From the NCBI GenBank assembly GCA_013821865.1, contig PNJM01000058.1, positions 1-11,100 of the forward strand: a DNA stretch of 11,100 nt. The letters are read 5' to 3'. Shown one piece after another: positions 1-10,832 of this stretch (position 1 is the stretch's first letter; the number at the start of each line of letters is the position of its first letter). The translations under genes were made by a program, and so were the position numbers. The notes under the pieces were generated by a model. The model was not told where the DNA came from, did no database searches, and was given only the letters and a program-made list of their open reading frames with translations. The stretch is from Rhodocyclaceae bacterium (GTDB lineage: Bacteria > Pseudomonadota > Gammaproteobacteria > Burkholderiales > Rhodocyclaceae).

Positions 1-86
1 ACCTCGGCGGATACATCGCCATATCCGGCATCATCGCCGGCGCCTGGGTCGGTTCGCTGATCTACAAGAAAATCCTGGAGGGTTGA
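1..86 (+). CDS. C-terminal tail of a membrane protein, probable first half of a split YeeE/YedE transporter (partial)
   Basis: Only the last 27 codons are present, read from base 3 to the TGA at 84-86. The residues are mostly Ile, Ala and Gly and form most of one membrane helix (YIAISGIIAGAWVGSLIY), ending in a basic KKILEG tail. This fits the end of a polytopic inner-membrane protein with a cytoplasmic C-terminus. The next gene starts 4 bases later and is a YeeE/YedE half-protein, and in many proteobacteria this family is split over two adjacent genes. Identity as the partner half is therefore inferred from position and composition only; the fragment carries no diagnostic motif. Confidence 0.6.
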   Translation, partial: LGGYIAISGIIAGAWVGSLIYKKILEG

Positions 87-90
87 GACG

Positions 91-762
91 ATGACGCCTG
101 TCGCCGAGTGTCTCATTGCGTTCGTGTTCGGTTCCATCGTCGGGTTGCTGGTGCAGCGCTCCCGCTTCTGCAACACCGCCGCGCTGCGCGACGCCATCAT
201 GTTCAAGACCTACCGCAACACCAAGGCGCTGCTGGTGGCGATGATGATCCTGACCGTCGCGTTTACCGGGTTCATGTCGGTCGGCGCCGGACACCCGCTG
301 GATTTCGACGTCGGCTTCAATACCTTCATCGGCCTGTTCCTGTTCGGTATCGGCATGGTGCTCGCCGGCGCGTGCACCGTGTCCACCTGGGTCAAGGCCG
401 CCGAGGGCAATATCGGCGCCGTCTGGGCGCTGTTGTTCACCTTCATCGGGATGTTCCTGTTCTCGCTGATCTGGTCGTGGAACTACTGGCCGCCGGCCCC
501 CGCGAGCATGACGGGCGAGCCCAACCTGCCCGCGCTGCAGCTCGGCGCGGCCAACGCGCTCACGCTGCAGGAGAAGCTGGGCATCCCGGCGATCTTCTTC
601 GGGCTGGCGCAGACGCTGGTGCTGTTCATGATCTACCGGGCCCTCCGGCGCAAGGAACGGGCCCAGCAGACGAAGCACGAGGCGGAGGCGACCATACACA
701 AGGCGAAGGCCATGACGACGCAGGAAGGGGCCGGAACGGCGGCGCATGCCGCGTCGGAGTGA
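91..762 (+). CDS. YeeE/YedE-family sulfur transporter subunit (second half of a split pair)
   Basis: A 223-aa polytopic inner-membrane protein of the Sulf_transp (YeeE/YedE) family, whose studied member TsuA imports thiosulfate. Two family signatures are visible, each with a Cys in a short loop between helices: RSRFCNTAALRD (Cys27) and GIGMVLAGACTVSTW (Cys95). In TsuA, cysteines in such positions line the substrate path. About five hydrophobic segments are present (around residues 8-22, 46-64, 78-98, 108-128 and 167-183). The length is about half that of a full YeeE, as expected for a two-gene transporter. After the last helix comes a charged, Ala/Lys/Glu-rich cytoplasmic tail of about 40 residues. 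The ATG at 91 has a GGAGGG site at 78-83, inside the end of the preceding gene. The transported species (thiosulfate, persulfide or another sulfur compound) cannot be read from the sequence. Confidence 0.88.
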   Translation: MTPVAECLIAFVFGSIVGLLVQRSRFCNTAALRDAIMFKTYRNTKALLVAMMILTVAFTGFMSVGAGHPLDFDVGFNTFIGLFLFGIGMVLAGACTVSTWVKAAEGNIGAVWALLFTFIGMFLFSLIWSWNYWPPAPASMTGEPNLPALQLGAANALTLQEKLGIPAIFFGLAQTLVLFMIYRALRRKERAQQTKHEAEATIHKAKAMTTQEGAGTAAHAASE

Positions 763-787: not shown

Positions 788-1096
788 ATGGGTTTGTTCG
801 GATCGAAGAAAAGCAAGGAAGAGGCGGGCGCGGCGGCCGGCGAGGTGACGCTCGGCGACGGCGCCACCTACCGGATCGCGCGCCGCGTGGATTGCCTGGG
901 GGATTCCTGCCCGCGCCCGCAGCTGATGACGAAGAAGACGCTGGGTGAGCTGGGCATGGGCGAAGTCGTCGAGGTGATGGTCGACAACCCCTCCTCGGTC
1001 GAGGCCCTGCCGCCGATGTGCGACGAGCTGGGTGCGACGCATCTCGAAACAATGAAGGCCGCCAACTGCTGGCGGGTCTTCATCCGCAAGGACTGA
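788..1096 (+). CDS. TusA-like sulfur carrier protein with N-terminal extension
   Basis: A 102-aa protein of the TusA/SirA/YeeD family. These small cytoplasmic proteins carry sulfane sulfur as a persulfide on the Cys of a CPxP motif. Here the motif is CPRP at residues 41-44, in the context VDCLGDSCPRPQLMTKKTL, with a second Cys at 36 and two more later (PPMCDE, ANCWRV). The rest follows the family fold, ending in a beta strand. About 30 residues precede the domain (MGLFGSKKSKEE and an acidic/Ala stretch), which ordinary TusA of about 80 aa lacks. I chose the ATG at 788 over the in-frame ATG at 746 because the run CAGGGGGAG at 770-778 is well placed for it and 746 lies inside the previous gene. 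It sits 25 bases after the transporter gene; YeeE-TusA pairing is common, and the carrier is thought to accept imported sulfur. Confidence 0.9.
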   Translation: MGLFGSKKSKEEAGAAAGEVTLGDGATYRIARRVDCLGDSCPRPQLMTKKTLGELGMGEVVEVMVDNPSSVEALPPMCDELGATHLETMKAANCWRVFIRKD

Positions 1097-1108: not shown

Positions 1109-1321
1109 ATGATCGCGCGCTGGTTGATGCGGCTGTTCGTACTGGTATCGGCGGTTGCCTGCGTGGCCGGCCTCGCCTACGTCTATGCCAGGCCGCCGCA
1201 GAGCATGCTCGTGACGCGGGACGGCATTCCGCACTTCACGCCGCCGGTGATCGATCCCAGGACGGGCGAAGGCGTTCCGGTGGAGCGGCTCGTGCGCCAC
1301 TATCGGGGAGAACGGCAATGA
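1109..1321 (+). CDS. Small single-span membrane protein (70 aa), unknown function
   Basis: A 70-aa protein with a basic N-terminus (MIARWLMR), one hydrophobic helix at residues 8-26, and a soluble tail of about 44 residues expected to lie in the periplasm. The tail contains IDPRTGEGVPVERLVRHY, which is closely matched by a motif in the 91-aa protein at 1423-1698, so the two appear to be paralogues. A GGAG at 1098-1101 precedes the ATG. It starts 12 bases after the TusA-like gene, and its stop overlaps the next ATG (ATGA at 1318-1321), which implies translational coupling. I do not recognise the family. The helix could be an uncleaved signal anchor. The only Cys (residue 18) is inside the helix. 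Confidence 0.75.
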   Translation: MIARWLMRLFVLVSAVACVAGLAYVYARPPQSMLVTRDGIPHFTPPVIDPRTGEGVPVERLVRHYRGERQ

Positions 1322-1410
1322 CGCTCGATTTCGAGACGACGATGCAGTTGGCGATGTTTGTGGTCGCTTTTGGCGTGTTCTATCTCGCCCTGACCAGCGA
1401 TTCGCTCTGA
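1318..1410 (+). CDS. 30-aa membrane microprotein
   Basis: A 30-residue open frame, MTLDFETTMQ followed by a hydrophobic helix (residues 11-26, LAMFVVAFGVFYLAL) and a short polar TSDSL end. Its ATG overlaps the stop of the preceding gene as ATGA, and a GGGGAG site lies at 1305-1310 with 7 bases to the start. The acidic N-terminus and single helix suggest an integral microprotein, perhaps a subunit or stabiliser of the nearby membrane complex. No family is recognised. Support comes from the coupled start, good ribosome-binding site, tight fit between two genes and clean transmembrane composition; there is no homology evidence. Confidence 0.6.
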   Translation: MTLDFETTMQLAMFVVAFGVFYLALTSDSL

Positions 1411-1422
1411 CGCGGAGAAAAC

Positions 1423-1698
1423 ATGGACCGTGGAAGCTGGTTTTACTGCCTAGGCGCGCTGGCGGCCAGCCTCGCCGTGTGCGCCGCGGGTTTTTCGTTT
1501 GCCGCGATGCCGCGAGACGCCCTCGAGGCGGCGAAGCGGCCGGCGTCGGCCGAAACCCTGCCGGACATCGACCTCGGCAGCGGATTCGGCAAGGTTTCGG
1601 TTGTCGAGCTGGTGGGTTACTACATCGAGAACCCGCCGGCGCCGGCCGGCGCCGCGGGCGGTGCCGTTCCGGCGGCGAAGCGTTTCGGCGGCTGTTGA
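1423..1698 (+). CDS. Membrane-anchored small protein with C-terminal Gly-Gly-Cys arm (91 aa)
   Basis: A 91-aa protein with one hydrophobic segment (residues 7-28) followed by a periplasmic part. Residues about 46-70 carry PDIDLGSGFGKVSVVELVGYY, the same pattern as in the 70-aa protein at 1109-1321 (I-D, then G-x-G, then V-x-V-x-x-L-V-x-x-Y). The last 20 residues are almost wholly Pro, Ala and Gly, then KRFGGC and the stop, so the protein ends on a cysteine at the tip of a flexible arm. This arrangement recalls SoxY, whose GGCGG arm carries the sulfur substrate during thiosulfate oxidation, although no SoxY domain is visible. GGAG at 1414-1417 precedes the ATG. The next gene begins 2 bases after its stop. 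Function is unknown; a sulfur-carrier or docking role is inferred. Confidence 0.75.
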   Translation: MDRGSWFYCLGALAASLAVCAAGFSFAAMPRDALEAAKRPASAETLPDIDLGSGFGKVSVVELVGYYIENPPAPAGAAGGAVPAAKRFGGC

Positions 1699-1700
1699 GC

Positions 1701-2681
1701 ATGCATTCCCGGCAGATCATCGCTGCGGCCGGCCTGCTCCTGCTGGCGCTTGCGTCCCCGCTGCGCGCGGCCGGCGACTTTGCCTATGTCCGGGCGTCGC
1801 GGCCGGCGCTCGATGCCGGCGCCGTGGTGATCGACGCCCGGCCGCTCGATGCCTGTACCCAAAGAAGCTTCGCCGGCGCGCGCTGCCTTGCCGCCGCGGA
1901 ATTCCTCGGTCCGCACCGTCGGCTGGCCGGCTTCCGCGACATTCTCTGGCTGCTCGGCACCGCCGGATTGCGCGGCAACGAAACCGTGCTGGTGATCGGA
2001 CAGGATCCGCTCGAACGCGATTTCGTCGCCGGCCTGCTCCACCTGGCCGGACAGGCGCGGGTGCTGATCCTGACGGCGCCTGCGACGCGCGAACTGGCCG
2101 GAGGGCTTCCGGCCGCTCCGGGGGTTGCGCGCAGCTTTACCCGCGAAGTCGTGTTCGAGGCGCCCATGCGTGACACCCTGGTCGTTCTCGGGCGCGAGTT
2201 GCGCGGCATGCAGCCGGCGCCTCTCCTGCTGGACGGCCGGAACGCGGAAGAATACTGGGGCGAGACGGTACGCGCCGCGCGCGGCGGGCATCTGCCCGGC
2301 GCCGTCAGCCTGCCCGCGGCGCAACTGCGTGCCGCGGAGAAGGCGTCCGGCACGTCGCTGCCGGCGGGCTCGCCCGTGGCGTACGGCCATGACGCCGTCG
2401 AGGGCATCGCCTACTTCACCCTGCTGCGGGCCGGCCACGACACGCCGGCGCGCGTCTATGTCGAGGGCTGGGCCGAGTGGGCCGCCAACGGCGCCTTGCC
2501 GGCGGACAGCGTGGCCTACCCCGACCGGGCGCCCGTCCCGGGCGCTTTGCCGGCGGAAAGTTCGCCTCGCGGCGAAGAGTCGCCGGCCGGACCGTGGATC
2601 GCCGCGGCCGCCGCCATCCTCGCGGCGCTGGCGGCGGCATTCGTGCTGGGGCGCGCAATGGGCCGCGGGAGCGCTGCCTGA
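1701..2681 (+). CDS. Membrane-anchored tandem rhodanese-like protein lacking catalytic cysteines
   Basis: A 326-aa protein. Residues 1-23 form a signal peptide (MHSRQIIAAAGLLLLALASPLRA). Two rhodanese-like domains follow at roughly 28-150 and 160-275. In the first, VVIDARPLDAC and GARCLAAAEF match the usual aspartate strand and substrate-loop positions; in the second these are LLLDGRNAEEYWGE and GGHLPGAVSLP. Where rhodaneses have the catalytic Cys loop, domain 1 has VIGQDPLERD and domain 2 has VAYGHDAVEG (Gly at residue 229), so neither can form the normal persulfide. A hydrophobic helix (about 296-317) and a short basic tail anchor the C-terminus, leaving the domains in the periplasm. I chose the ATG at 1701 because it gives a complete signal peptide and lies 2 bases after the upstream stop; longer in-frame starts would overlap the previous gene. 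It may bind sulfur compounds or scaffold partners rather than catalyse. Confidence 0.85.
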   Translation: MHSRQIIAAAGLLLLALASPLRAAGDFAYVRASRPALDAGAVVIDARPLDACTQRSFAGARCLAAAEFLGPHRRLAGFRDILWLLGTAGLRGNETVLVIGQDPLERDFVAGLLHLAGQARVLILTAPATRELAGGLPAAPGVARSFTREVVFEAPMRDTLVVLGRELRGMQPAPLLLDGRNAEEYWGETVRAARGGHLPGAVSLPAAQLRAAEKASGTSLPAGSPVAYGHDAVEGIAYFTLLRAGHDTPARVYVEGWAEWAANGALPADSVAYPDRAPVPGALPAESSPRGEESPAGPWIAAAAAILAALAAAFVLGRAMGRGSAA

Positions 2682-2971
2682 TGGAAATCCTGTTCCATGT
2701 CACTACGGCGGCGGGCGCGCGATTGCTGCCGCCCCTGGCCCGCGCCTGCGGCCGGGCGGGGCGCAGCTTCGGCTGCTTCTTCACCCATGATGGAGTGGCG
2801 GGCCTGCGCGACGCGGCCCTGTCGGCGGCGCTGGCCGGGGCATCCCGGGCGGTGGTGTGCGAGGAATCCTGGCACCGCTTTTGCGCCGATGCGCCGTGCC
2901 CGGTGGAACTCGGCAGCCAGACCATCAACAGCGCGCTGATGGGCGAATCGGCGCGCGTGGTCAGCCTTTGA
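2681..2971 (+). CDS. DsrE-like sulfur relay protein, cysteine-rich
   Basis: A 96-aa cytoplasmic protein of the DsrE/DsrF-like alpha/beta fold: an initial strand (MEILFHVTT), a helix, a second strand (FGCFFTHDGV), then a strand ending ASRAVVCEESW and a terminal ARVVSL strand. It has five cysteines, at 23, 32, 60, 68 and 73. Cys60, at the end of the third strand, is the best candidate for the conserved persulfide-carrying Cys of DsrE/TusD, and the FCADAPC pair nearby may support it. DsrE-type proteins take sulfur from TusA-like carriers, and a TusA-like gene lies upstream in the same train. The start overlaps the previous stop as TGATG (2679-2683). The following gene encodes a second DsrE-like protein with the same VVSL ending, 4 bases downstream. 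Confidence 0.82.
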   Translation: MEILFHVTTAAGARLLPPLARACGRAGRSFGCFFTHDGVAGLRDAALSAALAGASRAVVCEESWHRFCADAPCPVELGSQTINSALMGESARVVSL

Positions 2972-3268: not shown

Positions 3269-3460
3269 ATGAGCATGCGGATTTTGCAGTTGCACACCGG
3301 GCTGTTCCCGGACGCGGATACGATATTCGATGCGCTTGCGGGGCTGTCGTCCGGCGACGCCGTCGAGCGCATCGACATCTCGCGGCCGGAGATGGGGGAG
3401 GAGGACTGGGATCGGGTGGTTGAGGCGGTCCTGGCTTCCGATCGGGTTATAACCACATGA
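3269..3460 (+). CDS. Small conserved-looking protein of the DsrE-like cluster (63 aa)
   Basis: A 63-aa cytoplasmic protein: an initial strand (MRILQLHTGLF), a helix (ADTIFDALAGL), a short strand (AVERIDI), a charged helix (EMGEEDWDRVVEAVL) and a final SDRVITT strand. The last part resembles the ends of the two preceding DsrE-like proteins (AADIVVSL). It contains no Cys. It sits 2 bases after the previous stop; an in-frame ATG at 3275 is an alternative start. The position after two DsrE-like genes is where DsrH/TusB stands in the dsrEFH order, but the sequence is shorter and I see no DsrH signature, so I leave it unassigned. Coding status is supported by tight spacing and a balanced alpha/beta composition. 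Confidence 0.68.
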   Translation: MSMRILQLHTGLFPDADTIFDALAGLSSGDAVERIDISRPEMGEEDWDRVVEAVLASDRVITT

Positions 3461-3479: not shown

Positions 3480-4415
3480 ATGAAAAAGCGAATGGCAACA
3501 AAGCTCCACGCCTTGCTCGGCGGCGCACTCGTCCTGCTTTTCACATCCTTGCAGGCATTCGCCGCCGTCGAGCCGCTGGTCGACGTTGAATGGGCCAAAG
3601 CGAACACCGGCAAGCCGGGAGTCGTATTCATCGACTTCCAGCCGGCCACCGACTATCTGCGCGGCCACATCCCGGGTGCGGTCAACAGCAACTACGGCAA
3701 GGACGGCTGGCGCGAGGAACGCGCCGACAAGGTGCCCGACATGCTGCCGGCCAAATTCGACGCGCTTGCCGACATGATCGGCAAGCTCGGCATCGACAAC
3801 CAGACCCACGTCGTACTGGTGCCGCCGGGCATGTCGTCGACCGACATGGGCATCGGCACCCGCGTCTACTGGACCTTCAAGGTGCTGGGCCACGACAAGG
3901 TTTCCCTCCTCGACGGCGGCATGGCGGCCTACACCAGGGACAAGAAGAATCCGCTGCAGGCCGGAGGCGCCAAGCCGGAGGCGAAGAGTTTCAAGGTGGA
4001 TGTCCGCAAGGAAATGATCGTCACCATGGACGACGTCAAGAAGGCCAAGGCTGCCGGCGTGCTCCTGGTCGACAACCGGCCCGAAGACCAGTTTGCCGGC
4101 ATCAACCGGCACCCGAAGGCCACCGAAAGCGGCACCATCGAGGGCGCGAAAAACCTGCCGAATACATGGATGACCGTCAACGGCATGGGCGAATTCCGCA
4201 AGCGCGCCCAGCTCGAGCAGCTCTACAAGGTCGCGGCGGTGCCGACCAGCGGCGAGCAGATCAACTTCTGCAACACCGGCCACTGGGCGTCCGTCGGCTG
4301 GTTCGTCTCCAGCGAACTGATGGGCAACAAGAAGGCGAAGCTCTACGACGGCTCGATGACGGAATGGACCATGCTCAAGGGCGGCTCCGTCGAGCAGAAG
4401 GTCAAGCTCCAATAA
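3480..4415 (+). CDS. Periplasmic tandem-rhodanese sulfurtransferase with active-site Cys
   Basis: A 311-aa secreted sulfurtransferase. A signal peptide covers residues 1-28 or 29 (MKKRMATK, a Leu-rich core, then AFAA). Two rhodanese domains follow. Domain 1 (about 30-160) has VVFIDFQPATDYLRGHIPGA and DGGMAAY but no Cys in its active loop (VLVPPGMSST). Domain 2 (about 180-300) has VLLVDNRPEDQF, a GTIEGAKNLP segment and the loop CNTGHWAS with the presumed catalytic Cys264, then YDGSMTEW. This is the usual two-domain layout with an inactive first and an active second domain, which transfers sulfane sulfur (for example from thiosulfate) to a thiol acceptor. A strong AAGGAGG site at 3467-3473 lies 6 bases before the ATG, suggesting high expression relative to the rest of the train. 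It shares base 4415 or its TAA stop region with the cytochrome start that follows. Confidence 0.9.
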   Translation: MKKRMATKLHALLGGALVLLFTSLQAFAAVEPLVDVEWAKANTGKPGVVFIDFQPATDYLRGHIPGAVNSNYGKDGWREERADKVPDMLPAKFDALADMIGKLGIDNQTHVVLVPPGMSSTDMGIGTRVYWTFKVLGHDKVSLLDGGMAAYTRDKKNPLQAGGAKPEAKSFKVDVRKEMIVTMDDVKKAKAAGVLLVDNRPEDQFAGINRHPKATESGTIEGAKNLPNTWMTVNGMGEFRKRAQLEQLYKVAAVPTSGEQINFCNTGHWASVGWFVSSELMGNKKAKLYDGSMTEWTMLKGGSVEQKVKLQ

Positions 4416-5053
4416 GCGCGCGGAAACGTCGCATCCTGTTCTTCGCCGTGGCGGCCGTGCTGGCCGCCACGGCGCTTGCGCAGGACGAACATCAGCGGCG
4501 GCTCGGCGCGGAACTGGTCGTCATGGCCGGCGATGCGCGCCGGCTTGCGGCGGGGAGCGAGCCGGCGAGGCAGCTGGCCGGGGTTCGCGCGCGGCTGGCG
4601 GGAGCTTTTTCGTCGCTGCCGCTATTGCTGCGCCAGGCCGGCGGCGGCGGCGCCGAACGGGTGCCGGGGTTGCGCGCGGCTTTCACGCGCGGCGACTGGA
4701 AAGCGCTCGACAAGGGACTGGGCGAACTGCGCCGGCGCCACCCGCTCGACCTGGGCCGCATACTGCCGGCGACGCCGACAGCAGAGCGCCTGCGTCTGGG
4801 AGAGTCGATTCACCGCCAAGCCTGCGCCGGCTGCCACGATACGCCGGCTGCCGACGATCGGGGAAAGTCCCGGCCGGATGTCTTCCTCCCCGCATTCAAC
4901 CTGGCCGGCCAGATGCGGACCATGCCGCAGGAGGAGTTTGCGGCCCGCCTGCTGAATGGCGTGCGGGGAAACGCAAGCACCGCCTACCACAACCCCTTCA
5001 GCGACCTCGAGATCCGGGCCCTGATCGCCTACTATGCCGGCGGCGCACGCTGA
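4412..5053 (+). CDS. Secreted c-type cytochrome with helical N-terminal region; probable non-canonical start
   Basis: A periplasmic monohaem cytochrome c. The haem-binding motif CAGCH is at 4823-4837 (residues 138-142 if translation starts at 4412), and the C-terminal FSDLEIRALIAYYAGG is the typical last helix of class I cytochromes. About 100 residues of Ala/Arg/Leu-rich helical sequence come first and match no domain I know. A full signal peptide, SARKRRILFFAVAAVLAATALAQ, is encoded from 4415, but no ATG or GTG precedes it in frame. The best start is ATA at 4412, overlapping the rhodanese stop as ATAA, with AGAAGG at 4396-4401 upstream. CTG at 4436 and GTG at 4448 are alternatives that lose the basic n-region, and the first ATG (4523) would remove the export signal. 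Expected Met ligation is also uncertain: His193 (AYHNP) stands near the usual Met position. It probably takes electrons from sulfur chemistry in this cluster. Confidence 0.82.
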   Translation: MSARKRRILFFAVAAVLAATALAQDEHQRRLGAELVVMAGDARRLAAGSEPARQLAGVRARLAGAFSSLPLLLRQAGGGGAERVPGLRAAFTRGDWKALDKGLGELRRRHPLDLGRILPATPTAERLRLGESIHRQACAGCHDTPAADDRGKSRPDVFLPAFNLAGQMRTMPQEEFAARLLNGVRGNASTAYHNPFSDLEIRALIAYYAGGAR

Positions 5054-5071: not shown

Positions 5072-6805
5072 CTACCCGGTTACCTTCCGCACCAGCGCCC
5101 GCCCCACCATGCGCAGCCGCAGCGCCAGCGGAAAGCGCTTGAAGTTGGTCTTCACCGCGCCCCGGGTGAAGGCGGTGCGCTTCGAATAATCGATGTTCAC
5201 ATCCACGATCACCGGCCGGCCGGTTGCCGCGATGCGCCGCGCCTCGGCGATGGAGGCCTCTATGTCTTCGTTGCTGTCCATCATCACGCAGGCGGCACCT
5301 GTGGCGGCGGCCACGCCTTCGATATCGAGCGCGCCGAGGATGGAGCAGGGCTTGCGGTTATAGGGGATTTCCTGCGCCTGGGCGATCTGCGACAGCTCGC
5401 CGTCGTGAAAGACATAGAACACCACGCCCAGCCCCTGCATGGCGGCGGTGACGATCTCCATGCAGGTCATCATGAAGGCGCCGTCGCCGACGATGGCGAA
5501 CACCTCGCGTTCCGGCCGCGCGATCTTCGCGCCGATCGCTGCCGGCACGGCGTAGCCCATGCAGTTGAAGTCCGTCGGCACGATCAGGCAGCGCGACTGG
5601 TGCACCGGAAACAGCTCGGCGGTGAGATAGGTGTGGTTGCCGTCGTCCACCGAGGCGATGGCATCGTCGGGCATCTGCCGGCGCAGGGCCTCGAAGAAGC
5701 GCGCCGGGTTGACGCGGTCGCCGCTGTCGTGGGCGAACCACTCGTCGCGGTAGGCCTGCTTGTCGCGGCGGATCGCTTCATGCAGCGCGGCATTTGCGGG
5801 ACGCGGCTGCGTGCGCGAGCGCAGTTCGGCCAGCAGGGCTTCCAGCACCACGCGCGCATCGCCCTCGATGGCCAGCTTCGCCGGGTAGTTCTGGTTGAAT
5901 ACCGCCGGGTTGATGTCGACGTGGATCAGGTTCTCCGGCACCGTGACGCCGAAGCTGCCGGTGGCGAGTTCGCCGAAGCGCGTGCCTACGGCGAGCAGGC
6001 AGTCGCAGGCCTTGAAGGCGTTCTTCGCCGCCGGTACCGCAGTGGCGCCGAAGCTGAAGCCGGCATGCAGCGCATGTCTGGCCGGAAATGCCGAGAGCCC
6101 TTGCAGCGTGGTCGCGGCGGGCGCCTGCAGGAAGTCGGCCAGCGCCACGGCTTGCGCGGTGGCGTCGCACGCACCCCAGCCGACGAAGAGGCCGGGCCGC
6201 TTTGCCGCCAGCAGCAGGTCGGCGGCAAGGGCGATGTCGTTCGCAGCCGGCGCGGGGGCCGGCGGCGCAGGCGTGAAGACGGGCAGCTCGCCGACTTCCT
6301 CGGGGAAGAGCTGCAGGTTCACCGGCAGCTCGATGTACACCGGCCCCGGCTCGCCCGAGGTGGCGATGCGGTACGCCTCGAAGAAGGTGGGCACGATGTC
6401 CGCATGGCGCTTGAGGCGGAAGGTCGCCTTGGTCAGCGGGCGCATGTAGGCGTGCTGGTCGATCTCGTGCAGCTGGTAGCGCTTGTCGAGATCCGTGCGG
6501 ATGCCGCCGGTGATTACCAGCATCGGCACCCCGGCGAGGAAGGCCTCGCCGATGCCGCTCGAGGCATGGGTAAGGCCCGCCGCCGGCACGATGGCCAGCG
6601 TGCCGACGGTGTCGGAGACGCGGCTCACCGCATCGGCCATGAAGGCGGCGCCGCCCTCGTGCGTCACCAGGATGGGCGTGATCTTTTCCGAGTTGTTCAG
6701 CTCGTCGTAGAACTCGGTGTTGTGCACGCCGGGGATGCCGAAGGTGTAGCGCACGCCGAGCTGTTCCAGGGCGTATACGGCGAGCCAGGCTCCGGTCTTC
6801 TTCAT
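5072..6805 (-). CDS. Acetolactate-synthase-like thiamine-diphosphate-dependent enzyme
   Basis: A 577-aa cytoplasmic enzyme of the ThDP-dependent decarboxylase/synthase superfamily. The N-terminal pyrimidine-binding domain (about 1-170) has FGIPGVHNTEFYDEL and the conserved catalytic Glu50 in THEGGAAFMAD. The central domain (about 190-330) includes LFVGWGA and LIHVDIN. The C-terminal diphosphate-binding domain (about 360-545) has GDGAFMMTCMEIVTAA near residue 440. The motif normally ends in Asn-Asn, but here it reads FHDGELSQIAQ, so Asp takes the place of the metal-binding Asn. Family members condense or cleave 2-keto acids or 2-hydroxyacyl-CoA; the substrate is not readable here. The gene follows an FAD dehydrogenase by 10 bases on the same strand and has AGGAGA just before its ATG. 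It converges on the cytochrome gene with an 18-base gap. Acetolactate synthase itself is unlikely without a regulatory-subunit gene beside it. Confidence 0.85.
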   Translation of the reverse strand: MKKTGAWLAVYALEQLGVRYTFGIPGVHNTEFYDELNNSEKITPILVTHEGGAAFMADAVSRVSDTVGTLAIVPAAGLTHASSGIGEAFLAGVPMLVITGGIRTDLDKRYQLHEIDQHAYMRPLTKATFRLKRHADIVPTFFEAYRIATSGEPGPVYIELPVNLQLFPEEVGELPVFTPAPPAPAPAANDIALAADLLLAAKRPGLFVGWGACDATAQAVALADFLQAPAATTLQGLSAFPARHALHAGFSFGATAVPAAKNAFKACDCLLAVGTRFGELATGSFGVTVPENLIHVDINPAVFNQNYPAKLAIEGDARVVLEALLAELRSRTQPRPANAALHEAIRRDKQAYRDEWFAHDSGDRVNPARFFEALRRQMPDDAIASVDDGNHTYLTAELFPVHQSRCLIVPTDFNCMGYAVPAAIGAKIARPEREVFAIVGDGAFMMTCMEIVTAAMQGLGVVFYVFHDGELSQIAQAQEIPYNRKPCSILGALDIEGVAAATGAACVMMDSNEDIEASIAEARRIAATGRPVIVDVNIDYSKRTAFTRGAVKTNFKRFPLALRLRMVGRALVRKVTG

Positions 6806-6815
6806 GACTTTTCTC

Positions 6816-8432
6816 CTATGTGCTTGCCTTGCCGGCGATCGATTGCCCCGCCGCCCGGCCGGTCAGAATGCAGCAGCCGAGGAAGGTGCCTTCCAGCGCG
6901 CGCAGGCCGTGGCTGCCGCCGCCGCCGAAACCGGTCGCTTCGCCCGCCGCATACAGGCGCGGGATCGGCCGGCCGGCCGGGTCGAGCACGCGGCTTTCCA
7001 GGTCGGTCTGGATGCCGCCCAGGCTCTTGCGGCTGACGATGAACTCGCGGATGGCGATGAGCGGCAGCGCGTTGGTGTCGAGGATCTTCTGGAACTTGCA
7101 GGTGCGGATGCGATCCCCCTTCCATTGCCGCACGTAGGCGATGCGCCGCAGCTGCTCGTCGTTGTGGAAGGTCTCGCCGCGCTCGATCTGCGCATCGTAG
7201 CGGTTGATCGCCTCGCTCACGGCATCCAGCCGCACCGCGTCGTCGCCCTGCAGGGCATTCATTTTTTCCACCAGGTCGGGCAGCGAGCCGGCGACGACGA
7301 AGTCCTCGCAGTTCCCCAGCATCTGATCCACCAGCCAGCGGTTGCCGAAGAGCAGGTCGCGCAGGAAGGCCAGCTTCTTCTTGTCGCGGATGGACGGGTT
7401 GAATTCGGCGCCGGAGACGGCCAGCTCCTTCAGCGCGATCTTGCGGTTGAGCAGCTGCCAGGAATACTGCCGCTCCTCGGCGCAGATGCGTGTCACCAGC
7501 TCGCGCGTGTCGAAGCCCGTCACCAGCGGCTGCGGGCCGATGCGGCGGCCTTCCCAGTTCAGCCACAGCGCCGAGCGCGGCGGCACCAGGGACAGGCCGT
7601 GGCCGGGCTTGCGCGGCCTCCAGTGGTGCACGCCGGCGGCGTAGTCCCACATCTTGTCCAGATGCGTGATGTTGCCGCCCATCGCCTGCACGGCATCGTG
7701 CAGGCGGCCGTCGGCGTAGCGGTGCGAGCCGTTGAGGATTGTTTCCGGCGGCGTGCGCCAGTCGGCATGCCAGTGCCGGCGCACCCGCTCGATGTTGCCG
7801 TTGATGCCGCCGGCGGCCACCACCAGGCAGTCGCCGAACGCCTCGAAGGGCTCACCGTCCGGCTCCATTGCGCCGCTGCAGCCGCTGATGTCGCCCATCA
7901 GCGTGCACAGGCCGTCGACCCGGTGGTTGAAATGAACGGTGAGTTTGCCCGCGTTGGCGTGGCCGCGCAGGCGCGCGATGAGTTGCACGGCGAGTTCGCG
8001 GCCGGTGCCCCAGACGATGTGGAAGCGCGGCACCGAGTTGCCCGGCGTGAACTGGCCGCGCTCGACCCAGTGCGGCACGGGGAAGAAGCCGATGCCGCGC
8101 GCCTTGAGCCACTGGTAGACGTCAGGATTGCAGCGGTGCGTGTAGGCCTCGGCCCAGCGCCGCGGCCAGTGGTCGTCGGGGCCGAACTCGGCGAAGGAGC
8201 ACCAGTCCGAGAAGGCCAGCTGCGGGGAATCCTTGATGCCGGCGCGCCGCTGCTCGCCGCTGCCGACGATGAAAATGCCGCCGAAGCTCTCCCTGGCCAG
8301 GCCGCCGAGATTCTCCTCGCCGTCGCGGTCGAGGATGGTCACGCTCTTGCCGGCGTCGAGCAGCTCCAGCGCCGCGGCGATCCCCGCCAGGCCGCCACCG
8401 ATGATGACGGCGTCGCTCTTGTAGGTGCGCAT
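6816..8432 (-). CDS. FAD-binding dehydrogenase, KstD-like (COG3573 type)
   Basis: A 538-aa flavoprotein of the fumarate reductase/3-ketosteroid dehydrogenase superfamily, close in layout to the predicted oxidoreductases of COG3573. The N-terminal dinucleotide-binding motif is VIIGGGLAGIAAALELLDAG (GxGxxG at residues 12-17), followed by ILDRDGEENLGGLARESFGG. The C-terminal FAD signature is RLYAAGEATGFGGGGSHGLR and EGTFLGC. There is no signal peptide or haem domain, so it is probably cytoplasmic. The frame is open upstream to about 9200, but the ATG at 8432 is the true start: it has GGAGGGGA just upstream and begins directly before the first flavin-binding strand. It is the first gene of a two-gene operon with the ThDP enzyme and is transcribed away from the bactofilin gene. 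The substrate is unknown; a ketone or enoyl-type dehydrogenation is the family's usual reaction. Confidence 0.87.
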   Translation of the reverse strand: MRTYKSDAVIIGGGLAGIAAALELLDAGKSVTILDRDGEENLGGLARESFGGIFIVGSGEQRRAGIKDSPQLAFSDWCSFAEFGPDDHWPRRWAEAYTHRCNPDVYQWLKARGIGFFPVPHWVERGQFTPGNSVPRFHIVWGTGRELAVQLIARLRGHANAGKLTVHFNHRVDGLCTLMGDISGCSGAMEPDGEPFEAFGDCLVVAAGGINGNIERVRRHWHADWRTPPETILNGSHRYADGRLHDAVQAMGGNITHLDKMWDYAAGVHHWRPRKPGHGLSLVPPRSALWLNWEGRRIGPQPLVTGFDTRELVTRICAEERQYSWQLLNRKIALKELAVSGAEFNPSIRDKKKLAFLRDLLFGNRWLVDQMLGNCEDFVVAGSLPDLVEKMNALQGDDAVRLDAVSEAINRYDAQIERGETFHNDEQLRRIAYVRQWKGDRIRTCKFQKILDTNALPLIAIREFIVSRKSLGGIQTDLESRVLDPAGRPIPRLYAAGEATGFGGGGSHGLRALEGTFLGCCILTGRAAGQSIAGKAST

Positions 8433-8561
8433 GATGTCCCCTCCATCCCGGGCGCAGGCCGGCGCCCGGCGCGGGCGGTTGTTATTGGTCTGCTGCCGAG
8501 GTGTGCCCGCAGGGGGAAGGATAGCGCAACGCGGGCGCCGATGCAGTTGCTCCGTGCCAGG

Positions 8562-8577
8562 GTCGTTTCGCAACGAC
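8562..8577. promoter_or_regulatory. Inverted repeat, possible operator
   Basis: GTCGTT and AACGAC form a perfect 6-base dyad around a 4-base centre (TCGC). It lies about 130 bases upstream of the FAD dehydrogenase start and about 225 bases upstream of the bactofilin start, a position where a regulator could act on the - strand operon. No regulator gene is in the window and the motif matches none I know, so the operator call is tentative. Confidence 0.3.
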
Positions 8578-8738
8578 AAGCCAAGTCCGTGTCCGGCAAG
8601 GCTTAGTGCCAAACGGCGCTGTTTGCGTCGGCGGGAGACGACAGTTTTCAGGGAGTTCTTTCGCGGGTCGCGGCCCCATGCGGCTGATCCATTGGAGGAA
8701 GTCCCGCCAGGCACGCCGCTTGCATAGGTGATGGCAGG

Positions 8739-8759
8739 CGCCGGAAACATTTTCCGGCG
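8739..8759 (+). promoter_or_regulatory. Perfect 9-base hairpin upstream of the bactofilin gene
   Basis: CGCCGGAAA and TTTCCGGCG form a perfect 9-base-pair stem around the trinucleotide CAT, ending 42 bases before the bactofilin ATG. No T run follows, so it is not a classical intrinsic terminator. It may be a 5'-leader structure or a dyad operator covering the promoter. The spacing leaves the ribosome-binding site at 8791-8797 free. Confidence 0.45.
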
Positions 8760-8801
8760 TCGCTGCAAGGATGTGCTGTGCCATTCAATCAAGGAGTCAC
8801 T

Positions 8802-9404
8802 ATGCTCGACAAGATGCATCTCTTCGGCAAACAGAATGATCCGCAAACCGCCCAGAAGCCCGCCACTCCCGGAGTCAGGAAGCCCGCCGAGCCCGCCCCG
8901 GCGCCGGCCAGGGCCGAGCCGGCGCCGCCAGCGGTGGCGACACCGGCCAAAGCAGCGGACAAGTCCGAGGATTTCCAGGGCAGCAAGCTGACCGTCGGCC
9001 CCGGCGTCAAGCTCAAGGGCGCGGAGATCGCCGACTGCGGCACCCTCGTCGTCGAGGGGCGGGTCGAGGCAGTGGTGGACAGCCAGGCGATCCAGATCGC
9101 CGCGCAAGGCTCGTTCTCGGGGAATGTGGTTATCGATGTCGCCGAGATCCAGGGCCGCTTCGACGGCGATCTGACCGCGCGCAAGCGGCTCGTGATTCAC
9201 TCGACCGGGCGCGTCTCCGGCAAGATCCGCTACGGCAAGATCGTCATCGAGGAGGGCGGCGAGCTCTCCGGCGATGTGCGCTCGCTTGCCTCCGAGCAGG
9301 TTGTTGCCGCCCCCGTGTCGGCCGCTCCCGACGAAGCCAGGCGGCCGGAACTGGTCAGCGCGGACCTGGCCGTAGCCAGGGCCAGGTCGGTTTTCTCGAA
9401 GTAA
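8802..9404 (+). CDS. Bactofilin (polymer-forming cytoskeletal protein)
   Basis: A 200-aa protein with the bactofilin (DUF583) layout. A disordered N-terminal tail of about 58 residues is rich in Pro, Ala and Lys. Then a beta-helical core spans about 62-162, where short strands alternate with Gly turns (LTVGPGVKLKG, LVVEGRVEA, GSFSGNVV, GRFDGDLT, GRVSGKI, GELSGDV). A C-terminal tail of about 38 residues follows. Bactofilins self-assemble without nucleotides into filaments that localise cell-wall enzymes or polar structures and associate with the membrane. The ATG at 8802 is preferred over the in-frame ATG at 8778 because AAGGAGT (8791-8797) sits 4-5 bases ahead of it. No peptidase or other morphogenesis gene adjoins it here, so its particular role is open. 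It appears to be monocistronic, with a hairpin after the stop. Confidence 0.92.
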   Translation: MLDKMHLFGKQNDPQTAQKPATPGVRKPAEPAPAPARAEPAPPAVATPAKAADKSEDFQGSKLTVGPGVKLKGAEIADCGTLVVEGRVEAVVDSQAIQIAAQGSFSGNVVIDVAEIQGRFDGDLTARKRLVIHSTGRVSGKIRYGKIVIEEGGELSGDVRSLASEQVVAAPVSAAPDEARRPELVSADLAVARARSVFSK

Positions 9405-9419
9405 GCCAAGCCTCCCGGC

Positions 9420-9442
9420 ACGGGCGCCGCGCAGGCGCCCGT
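9420..9442 (+). terminator. GC-rich hairpin after the bactofilin gene, terminator-like
   Basis: ACGGGCGCC and GGCGCCCGT form a perfect 9-base-pair stem with a 5-base loop (GCGCA), starting 15 bases after the bactofilin stop. Stem strength and position suit a transcription terminator, but what follows is a C-rich run rather than a T run, so termination efficiency is uncertain. Confidence 0.5.
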
Positions 9443-9507
9443 ACGCCCCCTTGCCTCCTCCTGCAAGGATTCTTCACGGCATAGCCGGCTCAAAATCCCT
9501 GCGCTGC

Positions 9508-10832
<1,325 letters not shown>

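Follow-up and report, generated by a model that had tools for sequence, protein, structure and literature searches.

The small protein encoded at positions 1423..1698 of the window (the whole 11,100-nucleotide stretch of DNA that was analysed), hereafter s91, is a candidate membrane-tethered periplasmic carrier, which would take sulfane sulfur from a rhodanese and pass it to the cysteine channel of a YeeE transporter; we put the probability of this reading at about 0.5. Its terminal Cys is constant, its gene sits in an operon and co-occurs with an operon partner across genomes, and each named part of the relay proposed below contains an invariant Cys. Because a constant Cys tip is found within a sulfur-import operon, s91 could be the component, missing so far, that hands sulfur on to the transporter. 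The means by which sulfane sulfur is transferred into the cytoplasm were called unknown in the available part of one report (PMC11582611), and this import step gains a specific candidate in a protein family whose terminal Cys is constant and whose gene is locked in an operon with those of a transporter, TusA and a DsrEFH-like trimer.

A membrane-anchored protein with a constant Gly-Cys terminus

1423..1698, + strand: s91, 91 aa, with a transmembrane (TM) anchor at about residues 3-27, a conserved region at 46-73, a flexible arm at 74-91 and a Gly-Cys-COOH end
1684..1695, + strand: codons of the terminal Phe-Gly-Gly-Cys of s91

The start codon (ATG) of s91 is preceded by GGAGA, and the 91-aa translation ends in AAKRFGGC followed by the stop. 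The first-pass annotation of this DNA had described an open reading frame of this length with one N-terminal hydrophobic segment, a conserved region and a flexible tail, and both the translation and an AlphaFold2 model confirmed this description. The model, built from a 63-row alignment (mean pLDDT 76.9, pTM 0.41), predicted a helix at 3-27, a short helix at 31-38 and a helix at 60-69, with low confidence over 70-91, as expected for a protein with a single hydrophobic stretch, a short conserved part and a mobile tail. Searches of Pfam, NCBIfam and the PDB gave no family for s91, in line with the earlier view of the protein as undescribed; a Foldseek search with the model retrieved nothing similar, and no protein of this kind appeared in the available portions of the literature matches listed. 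A Pfam CBP match (0.0099, below the cut-off, in 2/63 members) was taken as chance similarity in the TM segment.

Invariance of the terminal Cys had been set beforehand as the test on which the carrier idea could fail, and no exception to it was encountered. A protein search at E<=1e-3 returned 105 homologues, and with the query included the Cys was at the C-terminus in 106/106. When the best 120 of the 338 matches from a profile search were added, the set grew to 164 proteins, two of them short (63 and 71 aa), all 164 of which ended in Gly-Cys-COOH. A contig scan yielded 27 loci, every one with an F-x-G-C end, and C91 was present in 28/28 aligned rows, the window row included. These loci were found by the pattern [GAS][YF]Y[IL][ED][NH]PPA, which excludes the tail, and thus the conservation of the tail is no product of selection by the search. 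They are partly non-independent: L030 and L031 have the same s91 protein, L033, L034 and L036 are near-identical, and several loci are the same contigs as genomes in the 149-relative sample described below. The residue two before the Cys is mostly Gly, though R, S, C, Q, E and A also occur, and the tail Phe is replaced by Leu in one protein and by Ile in a few genomes. The FGGC end pointed out earlier is therefore true of the window protein, whereas the constant part of the tip is Gly-Cys-COOH, with F-x-G-C nearly always present. The two most divergent genomes retain the terminal Cys, one of them in a frameshifted gene. At locus L055 (contig C1 of G563, a genome 95% complete) s91 has frame changes, with the KRFGGC-stop end in another frame; this frameshifted copy was counted as a holder.

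Conservation along the protein is uneven. Across 63 aligned proteins, the entropies were 1.39 bits for the TM segment (8-28), 0.72 for the conserved region (46-73), 1.83 for the linker (74-85) and 0.14 for the last four residues. A freely varying tail had been named as evidence against a carrier; the linker does vary in this manner, but the last four residues do not. The distance from the conserved PP to the C-terminus is 16-21 residues (160 proteins in which the motif was found), and no further Cys follows the TM segment in 153 of the 156 scorable proteins out of 164. In the 27 loci, the Cys codon is TGC in 19 and TGT in eight, and the last Gly codon is GGC in 16, GGT in six, GGA in three and GGG in two. 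The free variation of the linker together with these synonymous codon changes indicates selection on the protein. Taken together, a domain under constraint, an unconstrained linker and an unchanging Cys at the tip are what a carrier arm would look like, by analogy of design.

The TM segment is preferably read as an anchor rather than as a cleavable signal peptide, because it is itself conserved (F8, C9). A27-A28 is near-invariant, and an aromatic residue (Phe, Tyr or Trp) precedes it in few proteins (19 among the patterns listed), so that cleavage retains some likelihood. A lipoprotein was considered and rejected: the window Cys at residue 20 (L-A-V-C) is lipobox-like, but Ser, Ala or Leu stands there in 11/28 rows.

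An operon of constant gene order

The window starts with twelve co-directional genes separated by gaps of at most 25 bp, the first of them cut by the contig start. Besides s91, these are:

3..86, + strand: end of YeeE_a, the C-terminal-half-type subunit of a split YeeE, cut by the contig start; it reads LGGYIAISGIIAGAWVGSLIYKKILEG up to the stop
91..762, + strand: YeeE_b, N-terminal-half-type YeeE subunit (Sulf_transp; PF04143, 2.1e-24)
788..1096, + strand: TusA-family sulfur transferase (PF01206, 2.6e-18)
1109..1321, + strand: s70, a one-TM small protein without a conserved Cys and without a Pfam family
1318..1410, + strand: s30, a 30-aa one-TM peptide
1701..2681, + strand: RhoA, exported rhodanese-like protein with two domains and, in the window, a C-terminal TM helix (PF00581, 2.5e-9)
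2681..2971, + strand: DsrE1, DsrE-like small protein with an invariant C60
2976..3266, + strand: DsrE2, DsrF-like by position and size only
3269..3460, + strand: s63, DsrH-like by position and size only
3480..4415, + strand: RhoB, exported tandem rhodanese (PF00581, 1.2e-24; matches PDB rhodaneses), with C264 in CNTGHWAS
4415..5053, + strand: exported mono-haem cytochrome c (CAGCH; PF13442, 4.6e-7)

The same gene order on one strand was found in 27/27 loci, as far as the contigs extend: a split YeeE, TusA, one or two tiny membrane peptides, s91, RhoA, three DsrEFH-like subunits, RhoB and cytochrome c. Among these 27 loci, YeeE_b was present in 24, TusA in 25, s70 in 26, s30 in 14 (at E<=1e-3, which is difficult to attain for so short a peptide), s91 in 27, RhoA in 26, and DsrE1, DsrE2, s63, RhoB and cytochrome c in 24, 24, 24, 23 and 24, respectively. 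Absences other than those of s30 are due to contig ends, with the exception of L044, which lacks RhoB; at L044:2034-2900, s63 is directly followed by cytochrome c. Adjacent yeeE and tusA genes were both seen in 24/27 loci and TusA alone in one more, with the rest at contig starts. The surroundings reported in the first-pass annotation, a sulfur transporter/TusA pair and rhodaneses, were thus borne out, with the first YeeE half cut by the contig start. When open reading frames of at least 90 aa were taken from six reference loci, none beyond the block from YeeE_a to cytochrome c recurred in more than eight loci.

The two tiny membrane peptides are themselves conserved. In s70, P30, G39, P41, V47, P50, L61, H64 and G67 are found in all 27 rows, and its LVRHYKG end is faintly like LVGYYIEN of s91; as a sign of common ancestry, the hhalign comparison of s91 with s70 was weak (probability 22.6, E 9e-4). 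The s30 gene overlaps the end of s70 by 4 bp, and D4, T7, F14, F18 and D28 are found in all 15 rows recovered. Upstream of the Thiobacillus locus L034 (4246-7957, scanned with Pfam) are genes for a phosphonate-binding-type protein, for a histidine kinase and for a sigma-54 response regulator; the same three gene types were recognised by similarity only at L037:4260-7995, a locus of the cultured Sulfuriferula multivorans TTN, and relatives of the L034 genes occur in 5-7 loci. This set could possibly be a dedicated sulfur sensor. Downstream in the window (5072-10832), outside the conserved block, a TPP enzyme, an FAD-binding protein, a bactofilin and a Cys/Met-metabolism PLP enzyme are encoded; TPP and FAD queries across the 27 loci gave just one weak FAD match.

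A putative cysteine relay into the cytoplasm

The longer versions of YeeE_a contain one invariant Cys, in R-x-A-[FY]-[VI]-C-N, in 17/17 correctly framed loci (20 were tried, and L033, L034 and L045 were left out of the count as wrongly framed rows). In YeeE_b, C7, C27 and C95 are present in 25/25 rows, and alignment with TsuA (6leo) places C27 on C22 and C95 on C91. The channel of TsuA was described, in the available part of the source, with the Cys order C293, C91, C22 and then C17 of YeeD (PMC11073785); we infer that YeeE_a corresponds to the C-terminal half of TsuA and its Cys to C293. TusA has C36 and C41 in 26/26 rows, and DsrE1 has C60 in 25/25. A weak Pfam DsrE match was obtained for 4/13 DsrE1 members (best 0.0034), the window copy not among them; DsrE2 had no DsrE/F Pfam match, and the search with the DsrE-like genes gave no meaningful PDB match. 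Judging from gene order, size and the single Cys, with a weak sequence match, DsrE1, DsrE2 and s63 may form a DsrEFH type II set, in which the active Cys belongs to DsrE. RhoB has C264 in 24/24 rows. The N-termini of RhoA, RhoB and the cytochrome c are signal-peptide-like, and the three proteins were taken as periplasmic.

According to the carrier reading, the TM helix of s91 would hold the protein beside the split YeeE transporter, the small conserved region would dock on a partner, and the disordered arm that follows the conserved PP would swing the terminal Cys. A rhodanese in the periplasm (C264 of RhoB, where RhoB is present) could load this Cys with sulfane sulfur to form a persulfide, which the Cys would then present at the periplasmic mouth of YeeE. 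Sulfur would then pass from RhoB C264 to s91 C91, to the YeeE_a Cys, to YeeE_b C95 and C27, to TusA C41 and to DsrE1 C60, and in most hosts onward to DsrC and reverse Dsr. The placement of the tail in the periplasm, the persulfide chemistry, the direction of flow and every hand-over in this scheme are our proposal. Since L044 has s91 without RhoB, RhoB is not the donor everywhere. The genome of the window, an incomplete MAG with neither dsrA nor dsrB over the cut-off, also speaks against the scheme.

RhoA as a possible partner of s91

RhoA resembles the tandem rhodaneses (A. vinelandii 1e0c; EanB) in fold, and differs from them in that it has no catalytic-loop Cys, has a C-terminal TM helix in some loci and has a truncated second domain in seven. 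Its Pfam rhodanese domain covers 172-262 only. The AlphaFold2 model (mean pLDDT 86.0) retrieved 1e0c in Foldseek (E 2.1e-12, TM 0.73 by target length), and RhoA aligned with RhoB in hhalign at a probability of 98.4, placing it in the rhodanese fold. The catalytic-loop Cys is absent from both domains: G100 stands there in 27/27 rows, and position 229 is Ala in 18, Gly in eight and a gap in one. Gly229 of the window protein lies opposite RhoB C264 in the hhalign alignment and opposite the loop Cys of 2eg3; domain 1 of EanB likewise has a Gly at the aligned loop position. Inactive rhodanese domains are common. In the first domain, D45, R47, C52, C62 and G100 are invariant in 27/27 rows, short copies included; the first alignment had covered 16/26 loci and the window, with short copies left out, and the later set comprised all 27 rows. 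Seven copies of 200-224 aa (L022, L027, L030, L031, L035, L038 and L039) have a truncated second domain and lack the anchor, the L026 copy is incomplete at its contig edge, and those of L032 and L045 show no clear TM helix at the C-terminus, so that the helix is present in 15/24 complete-frame loci and in the window and absent in 9/24. Where these seven truncated copies occur, s91 is intact, so RhoA can do without its second domain and the pocket in it.

An alternative is that s91 carries no sulfur and serves in assembly, with its Cys held in a stable disulfide with a partner such as C52 or C62 of RhoA and the rhodanese thereby clamped to the transporter. The truncated, anchorless RhoA copies add weight to this alternative: C52 and C62 are invariant even in the short copies, a tether could help in the 9/24 loci whose RhoA has no C-terminal TM helix, and the RhoA gene adjoins s91 at a distance of 2 bp. 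Furthermore, a Cys-less one-TM protein next to a YeeE-family gene is known, namely the 56-aa Hden_0678 beside soxT1A of Hyphomicrobium denitrificans (available part of PMC11582611). However, RhoA of 15/24 complete loci and of the window has its own C-terminal TM helix, and a clamp does not call for a Cys at the extreme end of so long and variable a linker, a placement that suits a mobile arm. We regard the clamp as unlikely, while giving it a real share of the odds.

A bolder version of the carrier reading is that the F-x-G-C tip of s91 docks in the empty pocket of the RhoA first domain, provides the active Cys in trans and then passes the sulfur to YeeE. C91 might exchange with C52 or C62 of RhoA, and the loaded arm would swing to the YeeE cysteine channel. 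If true, a rhodanese would have its active-site residue on the movable arm of a different protein that is tethered to the membrane. The seven RhoA copies with a truncated second domain weaken this version, which must rest on the first domain, and we consider it a long shot.

Orientation of the arm

A sulfur carrier loaded by exported rhodaneses would need its tail in the periplasm, as the earlier annotation had assumed, and the charges around the TM segment of s91 bear on this in two ways. Before the segment there is one Lys/Arg in 161/162 proteins and two in the remaining one. After the uncharged stretch, two or three Lys/Arg fall within 15 residues in 127/162 proteins, a count that appears ambiguous and even unfavourable to a periplasmic tail. 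On the other hand, the first seven residues after the segment have a net charge of zero or below in 136/156, and the charge directly after the segment leans towards N-in, C-out. The assumption is thus supported by the residues next to the membrane and questioned by the wider count, and we judge, without a computed value, that the tail is quite probably periplasmic.

Conversely, the tail could lie in the cytoplasm, where it would shuttle sulfur among YeeE, TusA and the DsrEFH-like trimer. TusA and the DsrE-like genes do share the operon with s91, and Lys/Arg are more numerous in the 15 residues after the TM segment than before it. Against this, the residues that directly follow the segment are neutral or negative in those 136/156 proteins, a positive residue precedes it in 162/162, and in the complex described in the available part of PMC11073785 YeeD binds YeeE directly, which makes an extra arm unneeded. 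This arrangement therefore seems distinctly improbable. Least convincing among the alternatives is a redox arm, with the C91 thiol oxidised or acting as a haem or metal ligand and passing electrons to the operon cytochrome c during sulfide or persulfide oxidation: this mono-haem protein is indeed encoded in 24/27 loci (C141 and C144 in 25/25 rows), but a lone Cys cannot cycle a disulfide alone, no conserved His or Met stands beside C91, and the remaining named operon parts fit sulfur transfer, so that we hold it to be very improbable.

Comparison with known sulfur-handling systems

SoxY has its Cys in a C-terminal GGCGG motif, and DsrC/TusE proteins have a C-terminal Cys arm in a Dsr-linked pathway. 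Like SoxYZ, s91 is a sulfur-pathway protein with its Cys on a flexible arm; unlike SoxY, its Cys is the last residue (164/164), it is anchored by a TM helix with about 63 residues outside the membrane, and it has no known second subunit. The SoxY domain (PF13501) gave no match to s91 at E<=1, nor any at E<=0.1 among 63 members. A true SoxY coexists with s91 in 16/17 genomes (G008 is the exception), and SoxY is common anyway (101/149 relatives). The resemblance to DsrC/TusE consists in the Cys arm at the C-terminus within a Dsr-linked pathway, and the difference in the membrane anchor and the single Cys outside the membrane; no DsrC-family domain match was obtained for the window protein or in the 63-member scan. 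By the features compared, s91 thus appears SoxY-like in design, but is neither SoxY nor DsrC. The persulfide-carrier role put forward in the first-pass annotation is partly supported: the terminal Cys is constant, and the tail leans towards the periplasm. The SoxY Cys is carried on a flexible swinging arm, according to the available part of PMC5336275.

The core of the operon, with YeeE, TusA and three small DsrE/F/H-like genes, can be likened by description to the YTD cluster (yeeE-tusA-dsrEFH type II) of Desulfobacterota and cable bacteria, for which yeeE, tusA and three dsrEFH-like genes are given in the available parts of PMC13293266 and PMC13047784. In the available part of the former, the cable-bacterium DsrEFH type II trimer acted as a sulfur transferase in vitro, and DsrEFH type II subtype 1 was placed partly in Pseudomonadota (PMC13293266). 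Unlike the YTD cluster as described there, the operon has a split YeeE and, in addition, s70, s30, s91, RhoA, RhoB and cytochrome c. Since the YTD cluster is described without an arm in these parts of the sources, such an arm is not required by every YeeE. From this comparison, Betaproteobacterial sulfur oxidisers seem to have their own version, enlarged by a set of exported parts, of the yeeE-tusA-dsrEFH cluster known from sulfate reducers and disproportionators. The SoxT1A neighbourhood, as far as given in PMC11582611, is also similar in combining a YeeE-family transporter with a helper in the periplasm and a very small membrane protein. DsbA or SoxS was suggested there as presenter to SoxT; the SoxT1A helper is DsbA-like with CxxC motifs, and Hden_0678 differs from s91 in having no Cys. 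The available part of a report on genomes of neutrophilic sulfur oxidisers mentions neither rhodanese nor YedE (PMC6397845).

Distribution and genomic context

The s91 gene was found in 17/149 relatives, 11/300 genomes of the order and 2/398 genomes of the phylum, in samples that overlap. Among the relatives there were 19 matches, two of which (L018 and L019) were weak and were dropped as chance after inspection of the sequences; in the order there were 12, of which the weak match of G108 (E 2.9e-4 in an 897-aa frame) was taken as chance. DsrE2 occurred in exactly these 17, 11 and 2 genomes. With the two genes in one operon such co-occurrence is expected; it adds that genomes retain or lose the operon whole. 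A plasmid search gave no match. The record names of the s91 hosts are Rhodocyclaceae, Sulfuritalea, Thiobacillus and Sulfuriferula, together with other MAG labels, some of them Alpha- or Gammaproteobacteria. At L033, under a Rhizobium MAG label, s91 is nearly the same as in the Thiobacillus loci, and the identical s91 of L030 and L031 stand under different labels; these labels may be unreliable.

A dsrB over the cut-off was found in 14/17 genomes with the module and in 27/132 without it (41/149 in total), as raw counts that ignore kinship. Below the cut-off, the dsrB model also matched 11/14 control genomes, and only matches over the cut-off were therefore counted. The three module genomes without such a match are G000, to which the window belongs (81.7% complete), G006 (53%) and G014, which has two partial pieces. 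In G000, dsrA and dsrB over the cut-off were both absent, and contig C8 contains aprA (6220-8169) and SoxY (13317-13607).
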